Part shown: piece by piece, positions 39,186 through 61,906 of the stretch
Position numbering within the stretch: the first letter of the stretch is position 1
Layout: each line of letters opens with the position of its first letter
Source: Natrarchaeobaculum sulfurireducens
GTDB taxonomy: Archaea > Halobacteriota > Halobacteria > Halobacteriales > Natrialbaceae
Direction: 5' to 3'
NCBI RefSeq assembly: GCF_003430825.1
Contig: NZ_CP024047.1
Location: forward strand, 434,001 to 498,000
Length of the DNA stretch: 64,000 nt
Notes under the pieces: generated by a model
What the model was told of the DNA's origin: nothing
Databases searched by the model: none
What the model saw: only the letters and a program-made list of their open reading frames with translations
Translations under genes and position numbers: made by a program

Positions 39186-39291
39186 TATAGTAACAACTGC
39201 AACGAGTTGCACACCGATCGCCGACCGTCTGGCGATCAGGTGCACAATGGCTTATCTTCTCGAGCGGGCCTGGGCCGCAGTGGCTACTATA
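39186..39291. repeat. Palindromic MITE-like element, copy 1
   Basis: About 106 bp bounded by TATAGTAACAACTGC (39186-39200) and GCAGTGGCTACTATA (39277-39291), inverted repeats with two mismatches. Inside, GTTGCACACCGATCGCC and GGCGATCAGGTGCAC form a second arm pair around a short loop. It is clearly related to the element at 61235-61318; the distal arm here carries about 25 extra bases. No coding capacity. Confidence 0.8.
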
Positions 39292-60892: not shown

Positions 60893-61906
60893 GCACTCGA
60901 GTCAGTCGCGCCGGGACAAAAAAGTCGCCATTCGTTCCACGTCGTGCCATCGGTCGATCGGGCCACTGCTACGACGCCGCGAGTCGATGACCGCGATCCA
61001 CTGTGTCGCTCCGACACGACGTATCAGGGCCGAGCTACGACGAGGTTCGGCGACTGGCTCGACAGTGCGAGTCCGACGGCGTCGAGAAGACGTTATCCGG
61101 TCGCGTTTTAGATCGCCGACTCCCGGCTGGGTGCACCTCTCTCGAGCACTTCTCATCAGGCCAGTGATGGTTTGTGGTTTAGAATTTACAACAGTACGAA
61201 CGTAAGGAATTGTCGGGTAATACTGGGTTCCGTTTATACTAACAACTGCACCGAGTTGCACACTGATCGCCGATCTATCCGGCGAGCAGGTGTGCACTGA
61301 CGTGCAGTGGCTACTATAGGACCGATTCGGATCGACCCTGTTCCTGACTGCTGCCTATTGGCCAACATATCTCTTGAGAATTCATATACGAAGAACTTTA
61401 TTTTGTCCGACCAGCCAGAAACTAATTGACAACCGATAGTTTTCTATTCGTTATGTGAAAACGAAGCTGTGGCTCTGTGTTTTTCATATAGCTCTCAAAA
61501 CGCATATAAGGGTCTTTGTAGCCTGTACAACTACTAAAGCATGCCTTGAAGAAGATATTTGAAGAATAGGATATTTCAGCAATCTCCGACAACAAATCAG
61601 TTTTCTACAACTCTATAAATAATGTCATTTTATCTATTGTGTTATTAGCTAACTACTAAATGCTATTGAGCGGGCCGTCAGCACGGCACCGCTTCCGTCG
61701 CCCGGTTGAAACGACCGTATCGGTGCCTCTCGAGTCGTTGCCCTCACCAGCGTCTGTTGCCACCCGTCCGGGTGAATCAGTTCCGAGTTGGCGTTCGGTA
61801 GGTCGTTTCGACCGTGTCGATTGCATGCCGGATCGAGCCAACTGACTTAAACACCCCCACAATTCATCACCCGTTCTCATTGCTGTGTGAAACGATTACA
61901 CTATTC
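60893..61906. other. Gene-free, AT-rich kilobase with palindromic element
   Basis: I see no credible gene. The first 340 bases have normal GC but only basic, unlike-looking frames. The MITE-like palindrome (61235-61318) follows. From about 61360 to 61670 the base composition drops to strongly AT-rich, with CATATAAGGG (61502-61511) and TATAAATAATG (61614-61624) elements that look like TATA boxes, and no ORF longer than about 40 codons. It may be a transfer scar, decayed IS or a matrix of promoters for the downstream regulator gene. Confidence 0.6.
61235..61318. repeat. Palindromic MITE-like element, copy 2
   Basis: 84 bp, almost fully self-complementary: left arm TATACTAACAACTGCACCGA... (61235-61271) pairs with right arm reading TATAGTAGCCACTGCACGTC... 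on the opposite strand, around a loop near 61272-61280. It shares ACTAACAACTGCA, GAGTTGCACA, GATCGCCGA and GCAGTGGCTACTATA with copy 1 at 39186. No coding capacity. Confidence 0.8.

Follow-up and report, generated by a model that had tools for sequence, protein, structure and literature searches.

A palindromic MITE of haloarchaea that duplicates TA and shares asymmetric ends with IS630 elements of the ISNpe3/ISNamo16 group

Two related palindromic elements in a stretch of 64,000 nucleotides from the main contig (C3) of Natrarchaeobaculum sulfurireducens (hereafter the window; G000:C3:434001-498000) belong to a haloarchaeal family of MITEs that insert at TA and duplicate it. Our preferred reading, to which we give a probability of roughly 85%, is that an 82-bp body, inserted at TA (with a preference for C-TA-G) and duplicating it, is, as we infer, moved in trans by an IS630 transposase of the ISNpe3/ISNamo16 group. 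An earlier note, made from the sequence of the window, had proposed a non-autonomous transposable element as one of two possibilities. This proposal is borne out by further copies, by empty sites with a single TA, by the absence of both window copies from the closest relative and by IS630-like ends.

Like other MITEs, the element has terminal inverted repeats, lacks a transposase gene, is shorter than ~500 bp (84-86 bp, or 120-129 bp in a long variant) and occurs in dispersed copies; empty sites reveal target duplication, and the ends are common with those of an autonomous transposon. The 2-bp TA duplication and a partner insertion sequence (IS) that encodes an IS630 transposase place it among MITEs of the IS630 type. 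No earlier description of the family was found in our literature search, which did not extend to ISfinder and subscription journals, and the accessible parts of PMC3119063, PMC10264941 and PMC10969869 (a 2024 review of prokaryotic MITEs) do not describe it. The family is thus provisionally new, and the kind of mobile DNA is well known.

Two copies in the window and the family in the host genome

Both copies lie where the earlier note had placed them (Table 1), and the shared ends and inner arms and the nearly complete self-complementarity described there hold. The copy at 39186 starts with TATAGTAACAACTGC and ends with GCAGTGGCTACTATA, with arms of 15 nt (87% complementary); that at 61235 has arms of 29 nt (72% complementary) and an additional inner pair of 10 nt. 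Both fold better than shuffled sequence, with z-scores of -4.3 and -6.7, respectively, for the better strand, and a 23-mer from the shared arm, with up to three mismatches allowed, has exactly two matches in the window against 0.00 expected. The arm insertion said to separate the copies is real: from TATA to TATA, the 61235 copy and nearly all others measure 84 bp, and the 39186 copy is the exception, with 22 bp more in one arm.

Other details needed correction. The ends are inverted as described, but GTTACTATA does not stand at both sides; one end reads TATAGTAAC and the other TATAGTAGC(C), an asymmetry that is family-wide. The spacers around the copies, described as low in GC, show just a slight enrichment in AT (58% vs 64% GC). 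As to the transport and regulatory neighbours, a BCCT transporter gene (39567) is indeed the nearest downstream, and a Bat/HTH_10 regulator (63005) is further off.

Table 1. Features of the two MITE copies, in window coordinates
Feature	Position	Strand	Basis or remark
MITE copy, atypical, 106 bp TATA to TATA	39186..39291	- (= strand starting TATAGTAGCC)	Missing from the syntenic position in G002
Terminal inverted repeat, TATAGTAAC end, with the TA presumably duplicated on insertion	39186..39200	.	Exact empty sites at other loci point to TA duplication
Terminal inverted repeat, TATAGTAGCC end (reverse complement)	39277..39291	.	Arm comparison
Right-arm stretch, ~22 bp above family consensus (limits approximate)	39245..39276	.	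Alignment to ~30 genomic copies
MITE copy, standard 84 bp	61235..61318	-	Syntenic spacer of G002 is diverged and holds no copy
Inner hairpin CTGATCGCCG / CGGCGAGCAG, 90% complementary	61263..61289	.	Arm comparison

The genome-wide search for further copies was positive. A covariance model built on 30 copies placed the family at ~61 separate positions (E<=1e-8) in the 3.79-Mb genome (G000), all on contig C3, and BLAST with the 39186 copy as query recovered some 40 places. The consensus is an imperfect palindrome of 84 bp, TATAGTAGCC...GTTACTATA, with GTAAC at one end and GTAGC or GTAGCC at the other throughout the family. Thirty copies from this genome have a mean column identity of 91% and a mean divergence from consensus of 8.4%; at this divergence the family looks old in N. 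sulfurireducens, where it is probably no longer moving. Sister types appear among the weaker matches, one of 86 bp with a different inner stem and one of 120-129 bp with an extra inner hairpin. In these long variants (L102, L108, L109, L111 and L114) the extra hairpin, CGCGGTTCGGAGCGAGGAACCGAG..GAACCGCG, replaces the loop. Contigs C1 and C2 (267 kb together) carry no MITE copies against ~5 expected from the density on C3.

Placement was assessed for 69 places, weaker matches included, on simple codon-score gene calls rather than annotation: 58 are intergenic, nine touch a gene edge and two lie inside a predicted gene. The window is 86% coding, and since 27% of its TA dinucleotides are non-coding, the intergenic excess goes beyond the supply of TA and suggests that insertions disrupting genes are selected against. 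The orientation of neighbouring genes shows no preference (29 co-directional, 21 divergent and 17 convergent gaps; 14 copies on the same strand and 15 on the opposite one). No obvious transposase genes were found between closely spaced copies in the regions of this genome that were inspected.

Insertion at TA and distribution across haloarchaea

Evidence for transposition comes from two Halomicrobium genomes (G085 and G135), of which 0.4-Mb blocks were aligned; they are ~97% identical over long syntenic blocks. Five exact empty sites were found between them, with the filled form left/TATAGT..ACTATA/right facing the empty form left/TA/right. For example, at B314516 the filled site reads GAGCCGC/TATAGT...ACTATA/TTACG and the empty one GACCCGC/TA/TTACG. 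Sites C201613 and C219720 have the same single-TA empty forms, and their filled forms hold a second element nested inside the MITE; at B244964 the element has lost 1 nt, and at B49315 the empty site reads TG. The TA-type duplication that the earlier note had suspected is therefore seen at four of the five sites, where a single TA faces a filled site with TA at both ends. One TA becomes two on insertion, and the MITE inserts at TA with duplication of TA.

The intact copies in G085 are 94-99% identical to the query, and the family moved recently in Halomicrobium. In 21 of 30 copies from other families the TA is preceded by C and followed by G, and C-TA-G is preferred by young copies. Transposases of the IS630/Tc1/mariner type are recognised by their duplication of TA, and for IS630 itself CTAG is the preferred target. 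CTAG occurs 16 times in the 64 kb of the window, far below the number predicted from base composition.

The second element in the nested cases is also palindromic, ATACGGAAAGTTGTAGG...CCTACAACCGTCCGTAT. It was seen in L260-L268 and at segment coordinates 201613, 219640 and 379341 of G135:C1 (add 2039999), lies at the same internal point of the MITE at at least three sites, and forms two composites that face exact empty TA sites in G085.

Both window copies are missing at the syntenic places in G002, the closest relative. Around 39186 both sides align and the element is missing; the region of 61235 lacks a copy within a diverged spacer, and at both places the G002 spacers are too diverged for base-exact junctions. 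L178, used as another empty-site query, showed a local rearrangement at its locus.

Of 292 Halobacteria genomes, 98 contain the family; they represent 29 of 77 genera and four families of the order, with members named in Natrialbaceae and Haloarculaceae. Ten genomes outside the family of the host have 5 to 55 copies each. Named hosts include Natronococcus, Natronorubrum, Natrialba, Natrinema, Halobiforma, Haloarcula, Halomicrobium, Halostella and Halomontanus, and the length is 84-86 bp almost everywhere across families. Haloarchaeal plasmids also carry the MITE (54 records), and the phage records searched gave 0 matches. One plasmid copy (L207:3001-3086, Haloarcula sp. CBA1115) directly follows a glycosyltransferase gene as annotated, and this insertion may have affected the 3' end of the gene.

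Ends shared with IS630 elements

Candidate partners were sought by locating DDE_3 transposases and reading the borders of their repeated copies. IS630 elements in Natrialba magadii (G063) and in G301, two genomes that also contain the MITE, have the ends TATAGTAACCGTTAGAA and TATAGTAGRCRTTAGAA, with GTAAC at one and GTAG at the other, i.e., the asymmetry of the MITE. Past the first nine shared bases, the GCC end of the MITE matches the IS end at 11 of 17 further positions (shuffle p 0.0006-0.002); the match at the other end is weaker (8/17, p 0.046). The two reading frames of the 1,059-bp partner match the HTH_33/IS630 and DDE_3/IS630 models (NF033545, PF13358), and the frames meet in an overlap at an A7G run, which is what a frameshifted transposase should show. 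ISNpe3 and ISNamo16 are the names given to the protein in public records, and the element borders lie at the expected TATAGTA ends. A search with the end pattern, which also catches some MITE ends and chance matches, found such ends paired in inverted orientation across 1,059 bp in many genera.

The ends thus match a known IS family, and for what the earlier note had called an unknown transposase, a candidate can be named. Because the MITE ends match those of the 1,059-bp IS630, including the GTAAC/GTAGC asymmetry, mobilisation in trans by its transposase is the best available mechanism. In this mechanism, the ISNpe3/ISNamo16-group transposase would recognise two non-identical ends, TATAGTAAC.. 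and TATAGTAGCC.., would cut the element out as double-stranded DNA and would insert it at TA, as IS630/Tc1/mariner transposases do. The likeness to ISNpe3 and ISNamo16 extends to the ends (TATAGTAACC.. and TATAGTAG.C..) and to TA at the junctions, whereas the partner is far longer and has a two-frame transposase. Beyond ~26 bp the interiors are unrelated, and descent of the MITE from the partner by deletion appears unsupported past this point.

On pNMAG02 of Natrialba magadii (L270, L292), an ISNamo16-type IS630 lies inside a MITE copy in two places, each time at the same base, and forms a 1,141-bp composite bounded by MITE ends. This arrangement fits both movement of the composite by the MITE ends and two independent insertions.

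End sequences from the class as a whole, rather than from each genome, are the basis for naming this partner. The end-pattern search detected no intact IS with ISNpe3-type ends in N. sulfurireducens (one end-like match), in line with its old, diverged MITE copies. The same search was negative for ISNpe3-type ends in G085, despite its apparently recent insertions, and gave one end-like match in G135, whose IS630 elements have other ends. Loss of the acting transposase from such genomes, greater divergence of its sequence or its membership in another IS630 subgroup could each explain this.

Recent insertions in G085 and G135, where recognisable ISNpe3-type elements are absent, are also what one would expect if a different IS630-like or other TA-inserting transposase moved the MITE. 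The obvious candidate is the IS630 with TATAGTGATG ends, present in N. sulfurireducens as four near-identical copies that have TATAGT in common with the MITE. However, its ends diverge from those of the MITE after TATAGTGA and lack the GTAAC/GTAGC asymmetry, and over 26 positions of the GCC end it matches at 10, against 19 for the ISNpe3 type. On these sequence comparisons it would rank below the ISNpe3/ISNamo16 type as the source, and we regard a mobiliser of this other kind as quite unlikely. Three of the four TATAGTGATG-end copies are on contigs C1 and C2.

The conserved hairpin, related elements and significance

One feature is left unexplained by plain mobilisation through an IS630 transposase. 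Between subfamilies, stem pairs change on both sides (e.g., columns 13/74, 16/71, 32/56 and 39/49), including pairs deep inside the element, so that paired changes preserve the inner hairpin, which is further in than any transposase site would be expected to reach. Such changes could arise by gene conversion between the arms or because source copies need the hairpin. Because the inner stem keeps pairing in this way at a constant length of 84-86 bp, the whole-length hairpin might itself be under selection in source copies; it could, for instance, form a cruciform or a single-stranded hairpin that transposition requires or that binds a host protein. We consider this unlikely; if true, it would make the family an IS630-type MITE with a structural requirement that is not known from other IS630-type elements.

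The same paired changes, the strong predicted hairpin in both window copies and the location of 67 of 69 copies between genes or at gene edges could also be read as signs of RNA function, either as a structured small RNA family, the second possibility raised by the earlier note, or as cis-acting hairpins (terminators, 3' UTR elements) kept for their RNA fold. Several observations speak against it. No Rfam family matched, orientation and place relative to genes are not fixed, and exact empty sites show insertion as DNA. Arm pairing among the copies of N. sulfurireducens is 88.9%, compared with 89.2% after column shuffling, i.e., there is no excess. G-U changes outnumber A-C changes on the better-folding strand (104 vs 35), but without four family-wide wobble pairs the counts are 38 vs 35, which is what neutral decay gives. 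RNAalifold, run on the GTAAC strand, returned an unconvincing structure of 13 pairs, the real palindrome being on the opposite strand. With no Rfam match, no fixed gene placement and no G-U excess, the RNA alternative finds no support, and we hold it to be very improbable.

Compared with known systems, the family is closest to MITEs of the IS630/Tc1/mariner group, which are likewise short and non-coding and have inverted ends, TA duplication, tens of copies and ends common with full-length IS630. It differs from them in that its two ends differ systematically (GTAAC vs GTAGCC), nearly the whole element is palindromic, and the length is nearly fixed at 84-86 bp across families. Palindromes derived from IS200-IS605 (PATEs) and REP elements are also palindromic, intergenic and repeated, but PATEs have neither terminal inverted repeats nor target duplication; a filing as PATE/IS605 derivative or REP was rejected because the element has both. 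According to the accessible part of PMC10264941, the Halobacterium MITEs (ISH2, MITEHsal1/2) are likewise transposase-free haloarchaeal elements moved in trans, and the target duplications of ISH2 (10 bp) and MITEHsal2 (6-8 bp) indicate other transposase families. The small mobile repeats SMR-A and SMR-B of Haloquadratum walsbyi share the size range (80-110 bp), prominent inverted ends and high copy number in a haloarchaeon, but as defined in the accessible part of PMC3119063, SMRs make no target duplication and have ends unlike any transposon, SMR-A targeting IS605/PATE palindromes; with TA duplicated and ends matching IS630, assignment to the SMRs was rejected as having next to no likelihood.

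A very common and so far unannotated haloarchaeal repeat now has exact ends, a target and a probable transposase. Annotators can mask the element and stop taking its copies for genes or RNAs. Its strict length, asymmetric ends and conserved inner stem also make it a tractable system for studying the end requirements of IS630 transposases, and genetics is possible in hosts such as Haloarcula and Haloferax.
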